Positions 13,139 through 26,638 of a stretch of DNA of 64,000 nucleotides are shown in pieces. The notes beneath the pieces were generated by a model. It made no database searches, had not been told where the DNA came from, and worked only from the letters and a program-made list of their open reading frames with translations. Numbering within the stretch: position 1 is the stretch's first letter; each line of letters opens with the position of its first letter. The position numbers and the translations under genes were made by a program. The DNA lies in assembly GCA_036262055.1 (NCBI GenBank), contig DATAJP010000002.1, forward strand, positions 640,177 to 704,176, read 5' to 3'. This DNA comes from Ignavibacteria bacterium. Lineage in GTDB: Bacteria; Bacteroidota; Ignavibacteria; Tepidaquicellales; Tepidaquicellaceae.

Positions 13139-14806
13139 TTACTTGTTTTTGAAAAGCAGACTGCTGTCGCCGAAGCTGAATAGACGGTAGTCTTTTTCCA
13201 AGGCGTGTTTATAGATTTTTCGCCAATTTTCGCCTATAAATGCGGAAACGAGGAGTAAAAGTGTACTTTGCGGCTGATGGAAATTGGTGATTAAAGCATC
13301 AACCATTTTAAATTTATATCCCGGCACTATTAATAGAGAGGTAGATGCGGTTATTTTGTCCAGGTTATTCTTTTCCATAAAATCGAGAATGGTTTTTAGC
13401 GCAAATTTTTTCGGGACATCATACTCTGTTTCATAAGGCATCCATTGGTTTATTTTAATTTCTTGTGCTTCGTCCGTGATTTTTTTATTGAGAATCAGAT
13501 AACTAATCCAATACAAGCTTTCAAGTGTGCGCAGGCTTGTGGTTCCCGTGCTTATGACAAAATCACGTTCATATAAATCTTCGATGATTTTTTTGTTAAT
13601 GATAATCCATTCGGGATGCATTTTATGTTTCCCGATTGTTTCGCCTTTCACAGGCAGAAACGTTCCAGCGCTTACATGAAGCGTAACAAAATCCTGTTTA
13701 ATATTTTTTTCATTAAGCTTGTTCATAAACTCGGGTGTGAAATGCAAACCTGCGGTGGGTGCAGCAACAGAACCCTCCTGATTTGCATAGATGGTCTGAT
13801 ATTTTTCATCATCGGATTTCTCTGCATCACGCTTTATGTATGGCGGTAGCGGAGTCATTCCGAAGATATTTACAATTTCACTGAAGTTCAGATATGCCGG
13901 CTCCCATATAAACTCAACAATAAATTTATTAGATAGAAAGTTCTTTTTTGCTTTCAGTATTATTTTTGTATATCCGTTGTCAATTATTTTTGTAAGAACG
14001 GGCTCTTTCCATTTTCTCAAATTCCCGACCATGCATTCCCATTTTGCATGTCCCTTTGTGTTGAATGCTTTTGTATAATCTTTTGTATCGAAAGGTTCAA
14101 TAATAAATAATTCAATCTTGGTTCCTTCTGATGTTTCAAAGAAAATCCGTGCATGAACGACTTTTGAATCGTTAAAGACAATCAAGGAATCTTCCGGAAA
14201 GTAATTTAATGCATTATAAAATTTATCATCGATAATTTTTCCGTCTTTATATATAAGTAGCTTTGCATTATCGCGCTTTTCTTCGGGGTAGTAGGCAATT
14301 TTTTCAAACGGAATTCTATAAGAATATTTTTTTATTTCGATGTCACGGACAGATTTTGATAAAGAGGATTTTTTTAAGCGGAGCATCATTACAAAATGCG
14401 GACCAATGTCTGGCATACCGAATTCATCGGAAATAATCTCAAAATTATTTTTCAGATAAAAATTTACAGCCGTGCTTCTTGCGTTGCACCATATATAGTC
14501 ACCGTTAAGCTCTTTAACTTTTTCAATTAAGTTGTTCAGAATTGCATTTCCATAACCTTTATTCTGAAGTTCATTTTCAGTTGCCATTCCGCGCAGACGG
14601 TAACCGGTTCCCGTAGTATTTTTATAATTTTCTTTATATAAAGAGGCAATCGAAACAACATTATCGTTTTCTATTACACCGAAATGAATCGTTGTTTCGT
14701 CTTCATCGTGAGGAAAACGGGACTTTTCAGTAATGCCATTGCGGAGAATTTTTGCCCGCAGAGGAATTATTTGTTCTATATTTATCTGTTTTATCAGCAA
14801 ATCCAT
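13139..14806 (-). CDS. queA: GNAT acetyltransferase fused to S-adenosylmethionine:tRNA ribosyltransferase-isomerase (QueA)
   Basis: 555 residues. Residues 1-145 form a GNAT N-acetyltransferase domain: 'RGMATENELQNKGYGNAIL' carries the Q-x-x-G-x-G acetyl-CoA loop, followed by 'ARSTAVNFYLKNNFEI'. Residues about 157-555 are QueA, which transfers and rearranges the ribosyl of AdoMet onto preQ1 in tRNA to give epoxyqueuosine. Landmarks are 'ALNYFPEDSLIVFNDSKV', 'AAPTAGLHFTPEFM', 'LHVSAGTFLPV', 'STGTTSLRTLESLYW' and 'LITNFHQPQSTLLLLVSAF'. A single unbroken frame with no internal start signal supports a true fusion. QueG, the next enzyme, is encoded at 60663. What the GNAT domain acetylates is not known. 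Confidence 0.9.
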   Translation of the reverse strand: MDLLIKQINIEQIIPLRAKILRNGITEKSRFPHDEDETTIHFGVIENDNVVSIASLYKENYKNTTGTGYRLRGMATENELQNKGYGNAILNNLIEKVKELNGDYIWCNARSTAVNFYLKNNFEIISDEFGMPDIGPHFVMMLRLKKSSLSKSVRDIEIKKYSYRIPFEKIAYYPEEKRDNAKLLIYKDGKIIDDKFYNALNYFPEDSLIVFNDSKVVHARIFFETSEGTKIELFIIEPFDTKDYTKAFNTKGHAKWECMVGNLRKWKEPVLTKIIDNGYTKIILKAKKNFLSNKFIVEFIWEPAYLNFSEIVNIFGMTPLPPYIKRDAEKSDDEKYQTIYANQEGSVAAPTAGLHFTPEFMNKLNEKNIKQDFVTLHVSAGTFLPVKGETIGKHKMHPEWIIINKKIIEDLYERDFVISTGTTSLRTLESLYWISYLILNKKITDEAQEIKINQWMPYETEYDVPKKFALKTILDFMEKNNLDKITASTSLLIVPGYKFKMVDALITNFHQPQSTLLLLVSAFIGENWRKIYKHALEKDYRLFSFGDSSLLFKNK

Positions 14807-18976: not shown

Positions 18977-20179
18977 TTGAAACGACCCAAACAAATTGTA
19001 GCGCTTGGCGGCGGAATGTTTTCCATGGAGCCGGAAAACGGTTTATTGGATAAGTATTTGCTTAACCTTGCTATGGTTGAGAAACCTAAAATCTGCTTTC
19101 TTGGAACCGCAAGCAATGACGGACAAGAATATATTGATTTGTTTTATAAATTTTTCCGGGAGCAGAACTGCATACCGACACATCTTCCTTTAGCTGAGAC
19201 AACGAAAACTTTAAAAGAGATTGAGAAGATTATTCTTGAACAGGATATTATTCACGTTGGCGGTGGCAACACAAAACTGATTATGGAAACATGGATGAAA
19301 TATGGTGTCGATAAAATTATGAAGAAAGCATGGCAGAGAGGCGTGATACTTTCGGGGATGAGCGCAGGCGCAATCTGCTGGTTTGAGGACGGAATTACAA
19401 ATCCTAATCCCGGTGAGCTTGACCGCCTTGAATGTGTCGGACTTCTCAAAGGAAGTTTTTGTCCGCACTATGATGACAGACCGGAATTGAGAGAGGTTTT
19501 TAAAAAATTAATTCTTGAAGATGTGATTGATGAAGGATATGGTGTTGAAGACGGTGCGGCACTGCATTTTGTAGATTCGAAACTGCTTCGCATAGTTGCA
19601 TCACGTCCCGGTAAGACGGCTTTCAAAGTTAAAAAAGTAAAGGATAAAATTGTCGAAGAGAAACTTGAATCGATTTATCTCGGGAAGGAATCCGATTTCA
19701 AATCTGTTTCAGTTGATAAAGCAAAGTATGACACAATAAAAACGACATACGAATTTATTTCCGTTATAAACTCTCATGATGCAAAAAAGATTATCGAGAT
19801 GATTACCGATGACCATTCATTCATCGATTCAATGGGAACGATTGCAAAAGGAAAAGATACTCTACTGAAGGCATGGAAAGGTTACTTTGACTGGTTCCCT
19901 GATTATAAAATAACACTCGAGCATACTTATGTCGATGATACTTCGATTGCAATTTTCGGCAAGGCAAGCGGAACGTTTGATGTTAACGGAAAGCTGTTGA
20001 AAGAAAACCGTTTTGAAATGCCTGCTGCATGGCGTGCAGAAGTAATTGAGGGAAAAATTTCCTTATGGCAGGTGTATGCGGATAATCATCCCGTTTGGCA
20101 AATCATCGAGCGCAATGAACGCGAACCCGACGGCGAAATTCTGACCAAAATAAAATTGCTTTCTGCAATTGAGCATTAA
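18977..20179 (+). CDS. Peptidase S51-like protein fused to a SnoaL-like domain
   Basis: 400 residues with a TTG start. Residues 1-235 are a dipeptidase E/cyanophycinase-type S51 peptidase: 'IVALGGGMFS', 'IIHVGGGNTK', 'ILSGMSAGAICWFEDG' (nucleophile S129) and 'GSFCPHYDDRPE' (H164). Residues about 255-385 look like a SnoaL/NTF2-like alpha+beta domain ('FISVINSHDAKKIIEMITDDHSFIDSMG', 'FEMPAAWRAEVIEGKISLWQVYAD'). The first domain should cleave Asp-containing dipeptides or act as a hydrolase on related substrates. The attached NTF2-like domain is unusual. The GH57 operon begins 11 bases downstream, so co-transcription is possible. Confidence 0.85.
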   Translation: MKRPKQIVALGGGMFSMEPENGLLDKYLLNLAMVEKPKICFLGTASNDGQEYIDLFYKFFREQNCIPTHLPLAETTKTLKEIEKIILEQDIIHVGGGNTKLIMETWMKYGVDKIMKKAWQRGVILSGMSAGAICWFEDGITNPNPGELDRLECVGLLKGSFCPHYDDRPELREVFKKLILEDVIDEGYGVEDGAALHFVDSKLLRIVASRPGKTAFKVKKVKDKIVEEKLESIYLGKESDFKSVSVDKAKYDTIKTTYEFISVINSHDAKKIIEMITDDHSFIDSMGTIAKGKDTLLKAWKGYFDWFPDYKITLEHTYVDDTSIAIFGKASGTFDVNGKLLKENRFEMPAAWRAEVIEGKISLWQVYADNHPVWQIIERNEREPDGEILTKIKLLSAIEH

Positions 20180-20190
20180 TTAAAAATTAA

Positions 20191-21726
20191 ATGAGTGCAA
20201 AAAAATATCTGTGCATACACGGTCATTTTTATCAGCCGCCTCGCGAGGATGCATGGACAAACGAAATAAGCCCCCAGCCATCCGCAGCGCCTTTTCACGA
20301 CTGGAACGAAAGAATTTTTCAGGAATGTTATAAACCAAACGCACACGCAGTAATTGTGGATGACTCCGATAACGTAATTACTAAAGTTAACAACTACGAA
20401 TATCTCAGCTTTAATTTTGGTTCGACTCTTATTCACTGGATAAAAAAAATTCATCCCAAAACATATCAATTAATAATAGATGCCGATAAAATAAGCGTTA
20501 TAAAACGCAAAGGGCACGGTAATGCAATCGCGATGGTGTATAATCACATCATTATGCCGCTTGCAAATGAACGCGACAAAATAACACAGATAAAATGGGG
20601 AATTGAAGATTTTAAATTTCACTTTAACCGCGAGCCGGAGGCAATATGGCTTTCAGAAACTGCATGCAATCAGGCGACTGTTGAAGCTTTAATTAATGAG
20701 AATATAAAATACATTATTCTTGACCCTTCGCAGGCAGAAAAAACCAGAAAAGCAAAGCGTGGCAAGTGGAAAGATGTAAGCAACGGTAGTATAAATTCCA
20801 AGATTGCATATCGTTGTTATTCGGAAAAACTAAAAAATAAATTCATAAACATTTTTTTCTATGACGGACCGCTTTCACGAAACATTGCATTCGATGACCA
20901 TATATATGATGCAACAAAGCTTGCAAACAGAATTATGCAGAATGTTGATGCTAAATGCAAAACAGACCAGCTTATTTCAAGTGCAATAGACGGTGAGACC
21001 TTCGGTCATCATAAAAATTTTGCTGAAAGAACTCTTGCATATTTGTTTTATGAACTTGCGCAGAGGTCAGGATTAACAGTTACAAATTTCGGTGAGTATC
21101 TTGAAAACCATCCTTCAGAGTATGAAGTAAAAATTAAAACAGGTCGCGACGGTGAGGGAACTTCGTGGAGCTGTATGCACGGTGTCGGAAGATGGAAAGA
21201 AGACTGCGGATGCTCGGGAGGGGGAATAAATGGATGGAATCAGGAATGGCGCTCGCCTTTACGTGACGCATTGAACTGGCTGCGTGACAAGATTGCAAAA
21301 ATTTATGAAGATGCGGGAAGTCACTTTTTAAAAGATGTATGGAATGCGAGGAACGATTACATAAAAGTTATTTTAACCCCTGATTTAAAGACCGGCTCTG
21401 AGTTTTTTTATCATAATGCGAAAAGGTATCTGAGTTCGGAAGAATCTGAGTTTTGCATTAAACTTCTTGAGATGCAAAGATATGGTTTACTGATGTTCAC
21501 AAGCTGCGGATGGTTTTTTGCGGACATTTCAGGAATAGAAACGATTCAAATACTTCAATATGCTGCTCGAGCGATTGAAATTGCTTATGAAGTTTCGGGG
21601 AAAAATTTGGAGAATCAATTTTTGGAAAAGATTGCTGAAGCAAAGAGCAACAAACCCGAAGAAAAAAACGGACGTGAAATTTATCTGAAGCATTTCGCTA
21701 AACGAGTTCCTGATTTTCATAACTAA
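20191..21726 (+). CDS. Glycoside hydrolase family 57 protein (DUF3536 type)
   Basis: 511 residues. GH57 enzymes act on alpha-glucans (amylase, glucanotransferase or branching activity). 'IHGHFYQPPRED' opens the catalytic barrel; 'AIWLSETACN' (E156) and 'SSAIDGETFGHH' (D267) fit the catalytic pair. The C-terminal part, with a Cys-rich 'CMHGVGRWKEDCGCSGG' segment, is the DUF3536 extension. It heads a set with malQ and the dikinase fusion, pointing to storage-polysaccharide turnover in the cytoplasm. The precise activity cannot be read from the sequence. Confidence 0.9.
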   Translation: MSAKKYLCIHGHFYQPPREDAWTNEISPQPSAAPFHDWNERIFQECYKPNAHAVIVDDSDNVITKVNNYEYLSFNFGSTLIHWIKKIHPKTYQLIIDADKISVIKRKGHGNAIAMVYNHIIMPLANERDKITQIKWGIEDFKFHFNREPEAIWLSETACNQATVEALINENIKYIILDPSQAEKTRKAKRGKWKDVSNGSINSKIAYRCYSEKLKNKFINIFFYDGPLSRNIAFDDHIYDATKLANRIMQNVDAKCKTDQLISSAIDGETFGHHKNFAERTLAYLFYELAQRSGLTVTNFGEYLENHPSEYEVKIKTGRDGEGTSWSCMHGVGRWKEDCGCSGGGINGWNQEWRSPLRDALNWLRDKIAKIYEDAGSHFLKDVWNARNDYIKVILTPDLKTGSEFFYHNAKRYLSSEESEFCIKLLEMQRYGLLMFTSCGWFFADISGIETIQILQYAARAIEIAYEVSGKNLENQFLEKIAEAKSNKPEEKNGREIYLKHFAKRVPDFHN

Positions 21727-21741
21727 ATTATTTATTATCGA

Positions 21742-21770
21742 AGTCATTTCCGTGCAGACGGGAATCCCCG
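21742..21770. repeat. GTCATTCC-type palindromic repeat (copy 1)
   Basis: GTCATTTCCGTGCAGACGGGAATCC forms a short hairpin (CCGT/ACGG region) in the gap between the GH57 gene and malQ. Related copies are at 60624-60651 and 62742-62775. Confidence 0.65.
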
Positions 21771-21776
21771 GTTGAA

Positions 21777-23405
21777 ATGGATTACAGTTATTTATTAAAT
21801 ACTCATACCGCCGACAAATGGCAACGAATCGGAATCAACCGCCGCGCAGGAGTATGCGCGCCTCTTTTTCATATTTATTCACAACAAAGCATAGGGATTG
21901 GTGATTTTTCAGATTTGAAACGACTTGTTGACTGGTGCAACATAACGGGTCAGACAATAATCCAGCTTTTACCTTTAAACGAACTCAGCCACGATTTCTC
22001 TCCATATAATTCCATCAGTACATTTGCGCTTGAACCTTGCTATGTTTCTCTCAGACATCTCAGAAGAGTTGAAATAAAAAGTTATGCAGATAACATTGCA
22101 AAGCTGAAAAAAAAATTCCCTGCTGGAGAAAAAAGAGTTAACTATGAAATTAAAGATGCAAAGTTAAAGCTTTTAAGAAAAATTTTCTTGAAGCTTAAGA
22201 ATTTTAACTCAAGAAATTATAACAAATTTATCAGGACAAATATTTATTGGCTAAAAAGTTATGCTGCATTTAAGATTTTAAAACAAAAATCGGGTGATAA
22301 AGACTGGAGCAATTGGAATGAAATAAATAAAAATTTTTCTGAAGAACTCATAAAGAAAACCGAAGAAAAAAATAAAAAAGAATTTGAATTTTACTACTGG
22401 CTTCAGTGGCAGTTATATGAACAGCTCAAATCTGCAAGGCGATATGCAAACAGAAACAATGTTTTGCTTTTAGGCGATTTGCCATTTCTTGTTGCGCGTG
22501 ACAGCGTCGATGTATGGTCACAACAAAATTTTTTTATACTGAACAAACAAGCCGGTGCTCCTCCTGACATGTATTTTGCCAAAGGACAAAAGTGGGGTAT
22601 GCCGCCTTATGATTGGGGCAACATAGCAACCGATAACTGGGCATATATAAAAAACCGCCTTAAGTATGCGGAAAATTTTTATGATATGTTCCGAATTGAC
22701 CATTTTGTGGGGTTGTTCAGATTATGGACATTATCTTATGAAGAGAATAAGTTGAAAAAAACCGGGGGTTCATTTGAACCCCAACAAGAAAATCTCTGGG
22801 AAACTCACGGAAGAACAATTATTTCCGAAATGAACTCTGCGACGGATATGCTTCCATGCGCGGAAGATTTGGGAACGGTGCCTCAGTGTTCATACACTGT
22901 TTTAAAAGAATTTGGAATTCCCGGAATCGATGTTCAGAGATGGAACAAGGTTTATCATGACGGATTTCACTTTAAAAATCCTCTCGAATACAGAACAAAT
23001 TCCATTGCAACGGTCTCGACACATGATTCGAGCTTTCTGCCTGTGTGGTGGAAGTATGAAGCGGGATATATTGATAAGCTTGAAAGAAAATTTTTTTTAA
23101 ATTTTCTTGGTTTAAATGAAGATCAGTTTGATACAGGATTTATTTATTGTGCATTGCAAAAAGTTATGGAAGCGGCTTCCATATTCAGCATTCAACTTTT
23201 ACCTGAGTATCTTTATCTCGATGAAAATATTTTAGAAAAATATTCAGACTGGACTTACAGAATTAATTTTCCGGGATATGTAAGTCAGGATAATTGGTCA
23301 ATTACTTCTCCTTGTTCACTCGAAGCTTTAAAAAGACTTGAGATAAACGATACTATTTTGAAAATTGTAAAAGAGAATAATAGATATGTAACGAAAGATG
23401 AATAA
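21777..23405 (+). CDS. malQ: 4-alpha-glucanotransferase
   Basis: 542 residues, family GH77. It transfers alpha-1,4-glucan segments between chains. 'RRAGVCAPLFHIYSQQSIGIGDFSDLKRLVDW', 'GDLPFLVARDSVDVW', 'FRIDHFVGLFRLW' (nucleophile Asp), 'PCAEDLGTVP' (acid Glu) and 'VSTHDSSFLPVWW' follow the GH77 motif order. The last codons overlap the next gene by eight bases, so the two are translationally coupled. Confidence 0.94.
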   Translation: MDYSYLLNTHTADKWQRIGINRRAGVCAPLFHIYSQQSIGIGDFSDLKRLVDWCNITGQTIIQLLPLNELSHDFSPYNSISTFALEPCYVSLRHLRRVEIKSYADNIAKLKKKFPAGEKRVNYEIKDAKLKLLRKIFLKLKNFNSRNYNKFIRTNIYWLKSYAAFKILKQKSGDKDWSNWNEINKNFSEELIKKTEEKNKKEFEFYYWLQWQLYEQLKSARRYANRNNVLLLGDLPFLVARDSVDVWSQQNFFILNKQAGAPPDMYFAKGQKWGMPPYDWGNIATDNWAYIKNRLKYAENFYDMFRIDHFVGLFRLWTLSYEENKLKKTGGSFEPQQENLWETHGRTIISEMNSATDMLPCAEDLGTVPQCSYTVLKEFGIPGIDVQRWNKVYHDGFHFKNPLEYRTNSIATVSTHDSSFLPVWWKYEAGYIDKLERKFFLNFLGLNEDQFDTGFIYCALQKVMEAASIFSIQLLPEYLYLDENILEKYSDWTYRINFPGYVSQDNWSITSPCSLEALKRLEINDTILKIVKENNRYVTKDE

Positions 23406-25962
23406 TGGAAAAAACATATTGTATCTGCTTGGCGGAAACGGGAGCAATAAAATATGGTGGAATTATACGCTTCCGTATTTTGAAACTATTACTCCGGTGC
23501 CAATAGATTTTTCTCACCTTGATAATAAATCAAAAAATTTTAATTCTTTTAACTTTCTCGACAAGCTTGCTGATGATTTAGTTAAGCAAACCAAGCAGGG
23601 CTGTAACATTCTTGCATGCGGAATAAACGCTCTTGTTGTTTTGCGCGTCTGTGTTAAATATCCCAAGTATTTTAATAAAATAATTTTGTTTGCTCCCATC
23701 GGAGCGAATTTGTGGAAAAGCAAATATGGAAATTTGTTGTCGTCAGCCATTCCAAGAAAGATTGCGAAATATATTTTGTCAAACCATCCAAGAAGAATTT
23801 CAAAAAGACTTACAGACAGATACTGGAGCAAAAACATAATTAAAAAATTTACAGACGGCTATAAACAAACTCAGATTTTTGAGGAGTATTTTAAATATGT
23901 AAAACCATATAACGCTCTCGACCTAACCGAATGGATTGAAAATGACATTGAGATAATCTGGGGAGAGAAAGATAAAGTTGTGAGCATTGAAAATCTTCCT
24001 GCGTGGGATGCGATACTTGCGCGAGCGAACTTGAATATAACTGTAAAAAATAACTGGGGACATTATCCTTATTTTGAGCAACCAGAAGAATTTGTAAATA
24101 CTATTCAAGAATCATTAATTACTAATAAAAATTCTTTTTCATCTCATACAAAATCAGGGAGATTAAAACTTGCAACAATTGAATCCAGTGCAAAAATAAA
24201 AGTCCCTGAATTTTTTACAATTAAAAATTCTGAGTTATCAGAATTTTCAATCAGTGCAGTTGAACAACATCTTTCAATTACTAATTACTCAATATTAAGT
24301 ACTCATTCGCTGTATGCGGTTCGCTCGTCTTCATCAAATGAAGACAACATCGATTCATCGAGCGCAGGCCAATACGCTTCATTTATTAGTGTAAAAAAGG
24401 AAGAGCTTGCGGAAAGAATTTTTAATGTGTTTGCAAGCGGTGGAAAAGAACAAGTGAATGAAGTAATTGTTCAGGAGTTTATCGAGCCGATGGTTTCGGG
24501 TGTTGCGTTTGTAAGAAACATAAGCTGTGAGATCGAATGGGTCGAGGGGCATCTTGAAGAGCTTGTCAGCGGAAAGAAAAAACCTTTTCGTGCGATTGTT
24601 TCGGATATGAAAGGTGAATGGCAGAAAAACTGGAACATGTATGTCGAGGATGCACCGTTTGTTTTAATGCTTTCTAATCTCACGGATTTTTTAAATAAAT
24701 GTATAAGTGTTTTTCAGTATCAGCATTCGGATATCGAGTGGGCTTGGGACGGAGAGAGTTATTACTTGTTGCAAATAAGACCTGTGACTTCATACAACTG
24801 GCACCGCGCTTTGACATCGGCAAATCTCGATGAGATTCTGCCAAAGCAAGTGAGCAAACTCATGGATTACGCGCAGGTTGGAGCGGCGGCGAGTATCAGC
24901 AGGATTTATTCTCTTTGGGATACGCGTGTTCTTGAAGACAATGAACCGTTCACGGTTTTGTATGAAAATGCATCGTACATAAATCTTGATTTGTATATGT
25001 CGTTGTTCAAAAGATGGGGATTACCCTCATCGGTTTTATCAAAGGACATTGGAGGAACAGCACCTGAATTACAATTTAATTTCTTTAAGTTCATAAAAAA
25101 CACTCCGCGATTTTATAAAATGATTTGTGTTACCAGAAAATATATTTTATCGACTGAGCAACACATAAAAGAATTTGAGAAAGAACTTTTGTCGTTGAAA
25201 GAAACCGGTGAGTATATTAATTGGTTTGTTAGGTATTATATGTTCATTGTCCGCACGAACATAATCATAAAAGCGGCGAATTCGAGCTCGCGGGGAGCAT
25301 TTCTTTATAAGAAAAATAAAATTTACAGTGAGCTTAATGAAAGCTCTAAGCACCGCACTTCTTTTGAAAGCGACCCTGCATCGCCAAGAAACACATCGGA
25401 TTTTAAAAGTGTTGTTGAGCTTGAACAGCCACGAGGAACTGCGAAGCTGTTTTATGCTGCGGGTTTTTTTGGATTCAATAATTATTTTGTTTATGTCCGC
25501 GAGTGGTTTCGCGATAACAACATGCGGCTGTTTCAAAGACTGCATGCGGGTTTGCAAGGCACAGAACAGGGACGGGAGTGGCTTAAGAAATTCGATGCAG
25601 TGCGGAGCATTACGGGAACATTCTGGGCTGATGAAGGTGATGTATATGAACAGGATTTTTCATTTGTGATTTATCCCGGCTCGGCTGAAGGAGTTGTAGG
25701 TGAAGGGAAAGATATTTTGATTGTTGATTATCTTGACCCGGGAAAATACAGTGAGTATAAAAAATATAAAGCGGTCATCAGCAAAACCGGCGGTAAGTTT
25801 TCTCACGGCGCAATTCTTTTGAGAGAATTAAAAATTCCGTCAGCGATTGTAAGTAATGTTGAAAATGATTTGGAGGGTAAGAGGGTGAAGTATGAGAATG
25901 GGAAGGTATTTACTAATGAAAAGGATGACCCAGAGGGTACCCCTTTGCTACGCTCAGAATGA
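23398..25962 (+). CDS. Alpha/beta-hydrolase fused to a rifampin-phosphotransferase-like dikinase
   Basis: 854 residues. Residues 1-240 have the alpha/beta-hydrolase pattern with the acid (D192 in 'WGEKDKV') and histidine (H222 in 'WGHYPYF'), but the nucleophile elbow reads 'LACGINALVV' with no Ser, so it may not be a working esterase. Residues about 255-464 form an ATP-grasp of the PEP-synthase/PPDK type ('AVRSSSSNED', 'SAGQY', 'DIEWAWDGESYYLLQIRPVT'). About 470-780 include 'ANLDEILPKQVSKLM', like the substrate domain of rifampin phosphotransferases. Residues 790-825 form the swivelling domain with phospho-His H803 ('GGKFSHGAILLREL'). There is no PEP-binding barrel. Being coupled to malQ and GH57, it could be a glucan or sugar dikinase. 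That role is inference. Confidence 0.82.
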   Translation: MNNGKNILYLLGGNGSNKIWWNYTLPYFETITPVPIDFSHLDNKSKNFNSFNFLDKLADDLVKQTKQGCNILACGINALVVLRVCVKYPKYFNKIILFAPIGANLWKSKYGNLLSSAIPRKIAKYILSNHPRRISKRLTDRYWSKNIIKKFTDGYKQTQIFEEYFKYVKPYNALDLTEWIENDIEIIWGEKDKVVSIENLPAWDAILARANLNITVKNNWGHYPYFEQPEEFVNTIQESLITNKNSFSSHTKSGRLKLATIESSAKIKVPEFFTIKNSELSEFSISAVEQHLSITNYSILSTHSLYAVRSSSSNEDNIDSSSAGQYASFISVKKEELAERIFNVFASGGKEQVNEVIVQEFIEPMVSGVAFVRNISCEIEWVEGHLEELVSGKKKPFRAIVSDMKGEWQKNWNMYVEDAPFVLMLSNLTDFLNKCISVFQYQHSDIEWAWDGESYYLLQIRPVTSYNWHRALTSANLDEILPKQVSKLMDYAQVGAAASISRIYSLWDTRVLEDNEPFTVLYENASYINLDLYMSLFKRWGLPSSVLSKDIGGTAPELQFNFFKFIKNTPRFYKMICVTRKYILSTEQHIKEFEKELLSLKETGEYINWFVRYYMFIVRTNIIIKAANSSSRGAFLYKKNKIYSELNESSKHRTSFESDPASPRNTSDFKSVVELEQPRGTAKLFYAAGFFGFNNYFVYVREWFRDNNMRLFQRLHAGLQGTEQGREWLKKFDAVRSITGTFWADEGDVYEQDFSFVIYPGSAEGVVGEGKDILIVDYLDPGKYSEYKKYKAVISKTGGKFSHGAILLRELKIPSAIVSNVENDLEGKRVKYENGKVFTNEKDDPEGTPLLRSE

Positions 25963-25969: not shown

Positions 25970-26638
25970 TTATTCTGTCCACACCAAAGAATATCTCCAG
26001 AATAATTGTCTTTTTATTTCGGCCCCGGGAAAATATTTATTGGCAAGTTTTATAAGCTCGCGATAAGTTAAATACACATCAGTTGCGCTGTGTTTTTTCC
26101 ATTGGTCACGCTCGGTTTTCGGCGTTCTTATAAATCCGTTATGATAAATATTTTTTGCAATGCCGAGCGGAATGGATACACTTGCATTCAGTGCGTTTTC
26201 AATGAAGCTGTTTTGAAGAAGATCGATTATTATGAGTCTGCCGTTCGGCTTTAAATTATGTTTTACTTTTTCTGCGAATGAATCAAAATTAATATGATGT
26301 AAAACTGCCATGGTGATAATACATTCTAAATGATTTTCAGGAAAATCATAATTAAGATAATCCGCAGTAAAATATTTTATATTGTCTGAAGAGTTTAATT
26401 TTTGCGCATGTTCAGTCATTCTTTGAGACAAATCCAAACCTATTACCGATTCCGAATATTTTGCAACTTCTTTGCAGAGCTTACCCTGTCCGCTTCCGAT
26501 TTCTAAAACATTTTTACAATTCGCAGGAAGATTTTTAATAACAAACTTATAAAATTCTTTGTTATGGTCCCATTTCTTTGCAGGAAAAGCGGAGATGACA
26601 TCAAAGTCCTGCCGGATTGTTGAAGTGTATTCGGACAT
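25970..26638 (-). CDS. Class I SAM-dependent methyltransferase
   Basis: 222 residues. Motif I 'VLEIGSGQGKLCKEVAKYSESVIGLDLS' binds AdoMet, followed by 'FTADYLNYDFPENHLECIITMAVLHHI' and 'LKPNGRLIIIDLL'. Substrate unknown; the pattern suits a small molecule or quinone/lipid-type methylase. Its start shares bases with the stop of the YiiX-like gene (TAATG), indicating translational coupling. Convergent with the dikinase gene, eight bases apart. Confidence 0.9.
   Translation of the reverse strand: MSEYTSTIRQDFDVISAFPAKKWDHNKEFYKFVIKNLPANCKNVLEIGSGQGKLCKEVAKYSESVIGLDLSQRMTEHAQKLNSSDNIKYFTADYLNYDFPENHLECIITMAVLHHINFDSFAEKVKHNLKPNGRLIIIDLLQNSFIENALNASVSIPLGIAKNIYHNGFIRTPKTERDQWKKHSATDVYLTYRELIKLANKYFPGAEIKRQLFWRYSLVWTE

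Follow-up and report, generated by a model that had tools for sequence, protein, structure and literature searches.

A 64,000-nucleotide stretch of the genome of an Ignavibacteria bacterium (referred to as the window, whose numbering is used below unless a locus label is given) was analysed, with attention to a gene for an 854-residue protein (23398..25962, plus strand) in which an alpha/beta-hydrolase-fold domain is joined to a putative dikinase of the rifampin phosphotransferase (RPH) type. The assignment was made from the open reading frame (ORF), Pfam, a 21-member alignment and a structure model. Two genes on the same strand precede it, namely a GH57/DUF3536 glycoside hydrolase gene (20191..21726; ORF list and Pfam) and its 3′ partner malQ, encoding a GH77 4-alpha-glucanotransferase (21777..23405; ORF list, Pfam and NCBIfam). 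As an earlier note on this DNA had described, the ATG of the fusion gene lies inside the 3′ end of malQ (23398 against 23405, an overlap of 8 bp) with GH57 just upstream. The fusion gene is the final gene of the run, and the gene at 25970 points toward it. Terminator-like matches in the region numbered 12, against 6.1 (sd 2.5) in dinucleotide shuffles, and promoters showed no excess in the region over such shuffles.

The protein comprises, in order, an alpha/beta-hydrolase-fold domain (residues 2-243; 23401..24126), an ATP-grasp domain (approximately residues 247-465; 24136..24792), a central helical domain of the acceptor type (approximately residues 466-755; 24793..25662) and a phosphohistidine swivel domain (residues 756-841; 25663..25920), all encoded on the plus strand. 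By Pfam, PPDK_N was matched at residues 301-467 and PEP-utilizers at 770-816, the hydrolase domain fell below the cut-off, and no phosphoenolpyruvate (PEP)/pyruvate-binding barrel was detected in the 854-residue protein; carbohydrate-binding modules (including CBM45 and CBM20) were likewise not found by Pfam in this protein and two other members. A search with the family profile matched solved alpha/beta-hydrolases at profile positions 3-247 (6i8w, E value 2.7e-10) and, beyond the hydrolase part, RPH and PEP synthases. The hydrolase domain of one proteobacterial member passed the Pfam cut-off; together with the family profile and the fold, this makes the N-terminal domain certain. The ATP-grasp domain was aligned with RPH by hhalign (98.1%), the swivel domain resembled those of EI and PPDK (Z 10-11), and the central domain was assigned from a weak match to RPH only. 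The fusion is not a chance joining, because 20 other full-length fusions align with it from end to end.

The four-domain order was reproduced in an AlphaFold model. The hydrolase domain of the model matched 5h3h with Z 21.7 (2.9 A over 229 aligned residues) and gave Z values of 20-22 with esterases and with receptors of the strigolactone type, its neighbours including the D14/KAI2 receptors and BioH. In a whole-length Foldseek comparison, judged by coverage and E value with the template modelling (TM) score set aside, the best match was RPH 5hv3 (E value 3.2e-13 over 864 columns); the TM score was 0.20, probably because the placement of the domains relative to one another differs. Since hydrolases alone were returned when the full model was compared using VIA-align, the central and swivel part was folded separately, and its best match was again RPH (E value 1.7e-4). 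Thus the domain order, the absence of a PEP barrel and the RPH-type rather than PEP-synthase architecture, all proposed in the earlier note, were borne out by Pfam, the family profile and the fold comparisons.

Conserved residues were examined in the alignment of 21 full-length fusions (the window protein, one from another genome of the same family (G011), and 19 from Pseudomonadota). K252, R309, E447, Q459, R461, R701, E702, R705 and H803 were invariant in all 21, with K252 corresponding to K22 of RPH, R309 to R117, R701-E702 to R666-E667 and H803 to H825. His803 (25804..25806) is the putative phosphohistidine and lies in S-K-T-G-G-K-F-S-H, which fits the swivel motif rule T/S-x-x-G-G-x-x-x-H of small-molecule dikinases (PMC12167813). 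The block R701-E702-x-x-R705 (25498..25512), taken as the counterpart of R666-E667-x-x-K670 of RPH, was placed by its motif and its distance from the phosphohistidine rather than by a full profile alignment, and MAFFT across the families did not align it; a motif of the form R-E-x-x-[R/K] is present in split dikinases and RPH as well, 159-163 residues ahead of the phosphohistidine (159 in RPH), while in the fusion the distance is about 100. Mutating Lys22, Arg117, Arg666 or Glu667 of RPH abolishes activity or resistance, and mutants at Arg117, Arg666 or Glu667 can still cleave ATP but fail to modify the drug (PMC4844700). Because the RPH-equivalent catalytic residues are kept in all 21 members, dikinase chemistry is very likely for the fusion family.

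The hydrolase part is conserved differently. At its elbow (C-G-I-N-A-L) the window protein has Asn77 (23626..23628) and thus none of the classical nucleophiles Ser, Asp or Cys, while Asp192 and His222 are present; His222 is kept in all members and Asp192 in 20 of 21. Position 77 is occupied by Asn in 12 members, Ser in 8 and Gly in 1. The earlier description of an elbow without Ser and with Asp192 and His222 retained therefore holds for the window protein and most members, and fails for the 8 with Ser77. Since the nucleophile position varies in this way, hydrolysis is not a function common to the family. BioH, D14/KAI2 and aryl esterases share the fold of residues 2-243, whereas the window domain lacks the serine nucleophile and is joined to a dikinase.

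A split form of the same two parts was found in another family of the same phylum (f46). There, the dikinase is a separate gene product of 743-754 residues, and in four of the five dikinase-carrying genomes (L166-L169) a separate hydrolase of 254-265 residues is encoded directly 5′ of it. These free hydrolases match the hydrolase profile of the fusion (E values about 1e-27 to 1e-29) and carry Gly in the position of the nucleophile Ser (elbow G-T-G-I-G-G). The pair thus resembles the fusion in placing homologous pseudo-hydrolase and dikinase halves side by side, and differs in being unfused, in having Gly for Asn or Ser, and in having an AhpC/TSA-like gene in front rather than malQ, as was observed at all four loci. 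This split arrangement is new here. As these genomes encode the parts as adjacent separate genes, the two are linked in two architectures, and a hydrolase partner lacking the classical nucleophile in both the fused and the split form suggests that it serves in binding or structure, with residual activity possible in the Ser77 lineages. In a tree of the dikinase part, two f46 dikinases were sister to all fusions (support 100/99, to be read with caution given the long branches), and the window and G011 proteins formed a clade (95/92).

Full-length fusions are present in relatives, and their distribution is sporadic. The contig scan was pattern-based and gives a lower bound; at least 19 were found in Pseudomonadota, in hosts including Pseudomonas, Burkholderia, Iodobacter, Andreprevotia and Chitinilyticum, and plasmid records contained three more, from Burkholderia. 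Within the family of the window, one other genome (G011) carries a full fusion. Among 395 genomes surveyed across the phylum, the full fusion was found in that of the window (G000) only and a separate dikinase in two f46 genomes, while 4 of 200 genomes from a single order of Pseudomonadota had the fusion. Such a scatter (1 of 395 and 4 of 200), together with decay of the gene into a remnant within one genus (see below), might be expected of a horizontally acquired, dispensable gene that is carried as the last member of a transcription unit, without any function connected with the operon. We regard this as very doubtful, since the window and G011 copies are only 46-49% identical and yet retain every catalytic residue, which indicates that the fusion protein is under selection whatever its link to the operon.

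Known dikinases and related enzymes were compared with the fusion. The nearest, RPH (PDB 5FBS, 5HV1-3), which phosphorylates rifampin at C21, shares the ATP-grasp domain, the central acceptor domain, the C-terminal swivel domain, the lack of a PEP barrel and the sequence in which the catalytic K, R, R-E and H follow one another, and differs in having no N-terminal hydrolase-fold domain and in the longer link between R-E and the phosphohistidine. Although the chemistry is alike, membership among the rifamycin resistance enzymes was rejected, as the NCBIfam score is 30.8 bits where the cut-off requires 999. The phenol dikinases HpeHI, CreHI and PpsAB have small-molecule dikinase chemistry and the same swivel motif (PMC12167813), whereas they are two-component enzymes of aromatic catabolism without a hydrolase domain. 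PEP synthase and PPDK share the ATP-grasp and swivel domains; they were ruled out by the missing PEP/pyruvate-binding barrel, and the genome of the window encodes a separate PPDK-like protein (a 924-residue open frame, G000:C2:706779-707816). No PADLOC model for anti-phage defence proteins was matched. The best NCBIfam match was the ‘hypothetical protein’ model PRK05849, with 75 of the 501 bits.

The prodigiosin ligases PigC and RedH, built with the same ATP-grasp and swivel parts, raise another reading, in which the fusion would be an ATP-dependent ligase or condensing enzyme, the phosphorylated acceptor would be an intermediate and the hydrolase-fold domain would bind a second substrate. The PigC profile matches the ATP-grasp part in 20 of 21 members and the RedH profile in 15 of 21, and two binding modules would suit two substrates. 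Membership was rejected, since the scores (38.9 and 31 bits) lie far under the NCBIfam cut-offs of 1300 and 1350, and no biosynthetic gene cluster was recognised around the gene in the ORF maps; a ligase is thus rather improbable. Judged from these profile scores, which miss the RPH, PigC and RedH cut-offs widely, no described family fits the fusion. The literature search, which most subscription journals lay outside, returned nothing on a hydrolase-dikinase fusion or a bacterial glucan dikinase, and dikinases were not mentioned in the accessible part of a review of prokaryotic alpha-glucan enzymes, in agreement with the earlier note, whose author knew of no such enzyme.

The explanation to which we give about an even chance is that the protein is an RPH-type ATP-dependent dikinase whose front hydrolase-fold domain probably holds the acceptor, that a small hydrophobic molecule is a likelier acceptor than alpha-glucan, and that the placement beside malQ is specific to the lineage. 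By analogy with RPH, the ATP-grasp domain would split ATP and pass the beta-phosphate to His803 of the swivel domain, which would bring this phosphate to the central domain; there, R701-E702 would assist its transfer to a hydroxyl group of the acceptor, and the products would be the phosphorylated acceptor, AMP and inorganic phosphate. The reaction itself is modelled on RPH, and HpeHI provides a precedent for small-molecule dikinases (PMC12167813). The hydrolase domain would most likely bind or present the acceptor, or sense a ligand, rather than hydrolyse it, and a small hydrophobic alcohol, a phenol or something lipid-like would be a likelier acceptor than an alpha-glucan. The D14/KAI2/BioH-like fold, the membrane and SDR neighbours in Pseudomonadota (see below) and a PlsY gene beside distant dikinases hint weakly at a small hydrophobic acceptor, and the last two at a lipid-like one. 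Of the sugar or lipid dikinase offered as an alternative in the earlier note, the lipid side survives and the sugar side does not.

Several observations weigh against this explanation. Eight members have the full Ser-Asp-His triad, and in some the hydrolase domain may still be catalytic. The AlphaFold model is of middling quality (predicted local distance difference test 74, predicted TM score 0.63), the central domain was matched by RPH alone and weakly, and the profile-profile alignment with RPH was confined to the ATP-grasp domain. The dikinases next to PlsY are distant relatives (27-30% identity where they match) and may have no bearing on the fusion clade.

Neighbouring genes were compared between the family of the window and other carriers. 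In this family, GH57 was present in 28 of 29 searched genomes, and the usual gene order is GH57-MalQ, often preceded by GlgB. Among the family genomes searched, a complete fusion stands next to malQ only in the window genome and G011. Two genomes of a sister genus (G003 and G017) instead carry, directly 3′ of malQ, a remnant of 256-289 residues that is kept open (L069:8777-9646; L070:33-803, minus strand), matches only residues about 365-570 of the fusion, lacks K252, R309 and H803 and has Q459 and R461 altered. All four carriers therefore have the gene at the end of malQ, complete in two genera and as a remnant in the third. Between G003 and G017, the ratio of nonsynonymous to synonymous substitution rates (dN/dS) was 0.34 for the remnant, 0.14 for malQ and 0.07 for GH57, by which selection on the remnant is relaxed yet still acting. 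The four carriers grouped in a tree of GH57 and MalQ (support only 55), with the window genome placed beside G003 and G017 (support 100). The malQ link is limited to a single family, and the grouping in this tree fits one lineage-specific acquisition.

At 21 proteobacterial fusion loci, no homologues of GlgB, GH57 or MalQ were found within about 10 kb (some loci being shorter on one side). The conserved neighbours were instead a membrane-SDR protein (DUF1731), a small membrane protein, DUF4166, DUF2269, a DoxX-SDR protein and a DCC1 thiol oxidoreductase, and the Burkholderia fusion loci had no neighbour genes in common.

The earlier note had proposed that the enzyme acts on or near alpha-glucan. 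The plant enzymes GWD and PWD belong to the same chemistry class (ATP to AMP and inorganic phosphate through a phosphohistidine); they have starch-binding modules, and their swivel domain precedes a C-terminal ATP-grasp domain. A bacterial counterpart phosphorylating alpha-glucan or maltodextrin would be consistent with the position of all four family carriers at the end of malQ, where two genera have a gene that overlaps malQ and another has the remnant; moreover, alpha-glucan is probably made by this bacterium, because its genome has genes for GlgB and for two proteins of the GlgA family (Glyco_transf_5). Against such a role, the 21 proteobacterial fusions lie away from glucan genes, no carbohydrate-binding module was found, the order of ATP-grasp and swivel is the reverse of that in GWD, the gene beside malQ lacks the catalytic motifs in one genus, and the malQ link may be a single event (the four carriers grouping with a support of only 55). 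With no sugar-polymer genes close to its relatives in other bacteria, the glucan-phosphorylating role is distinctly unlikely, and the proposal, together with the expected conservation of glucan neighbours, was not upheld. A narrower version, in which the fusion was recruited to the GH57-malQ operon in this lineage alone and phosphorylates maltodextrin or glycogen as an independent counterpart of GWD, with the pseudo-hydrolase serving as a new glucan-binding module, is very unlikely.

The remnant also bears on a regulatory reading, in which the protein would be a phosphohistidine relay or ligand sensor controlling neighbouring enzymes, as VadK reportedly does for the methylcitrate cycle. VadK, described as having an ATP-binding domain and a phospho-transfer His domain, is a PPDK-derived autokinase that binds methylcitrate-cycle enzymes (PMC13400623). 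The hydrolase domain resembles the D14/KAI2 ligand receptors, and a remnant kept open at a dN/dS of 0.34 without catalytic motifs is what might be expected if it served in binding. However, the central domain with its invariant R-E-x-x-R is retained, which a pure autokinase would not need, and the neighbours differ between phyla; a regulator is considered unlikely.

Further features were recorded around these loci. A gene for a Peptidase S51 (cyanophycinase-like) domain fused to a SnoaL-like domain (18977-20179) ends 11 bp 5′ of GH57, and the same gene also lies 5′ of GH57 in G003 and G017. MalQ of the window has 542 residues against about 610 in relatives; approximately 65 residues are gone in frame right after the conserved STHDSS motif, where sequence is present in every relative compared. 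A 555-residue ORF on the minus strand (13139-14806) joins a GNAT acetyltransferase domain to QueA of queuosine biosynthesis. Directly 3′ of the fusion at two proteobacterial loci is a gene for an inosine-uridine nucleoside hydrolase (L018:12436-13440, by Pfam; L026:12436-13440, by a similar sequence start). In a cyanobacterium and in Bacteroidales, genes for distant stand-alone dikinases either overlap or directly adjoin one for a PlsY-type glycerol-3-phosphate acyltransferase, in opposite gene order (L043:3266-6198; L037:4349-7451; L038:524-3629, the last by similarity to L037 only), and two distant dikinases are followed by an enolase-like gene, judged by the sequence start only (L040:8332-9744; L055:3012-4274).

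Outside central metabolism, few members of the dikinase superfamily have been characterised (RPH, the phenol dikinases, the PigC/RedH ligases and VadK), while homologues are widespread. Operon neighbours can mislead in such a family, as a strong-looking glucan link proved to be limited to one bacterial family and absent from the rest of the protein family. A distinctive and testable feature is instead the partner hydrolase without a conserved nucleophile, fused to the dikinase or encoded beside it. If this domain captures the acceptor, it would represent a new route to dikinase specificity, and its ligand would reveal the substrate.

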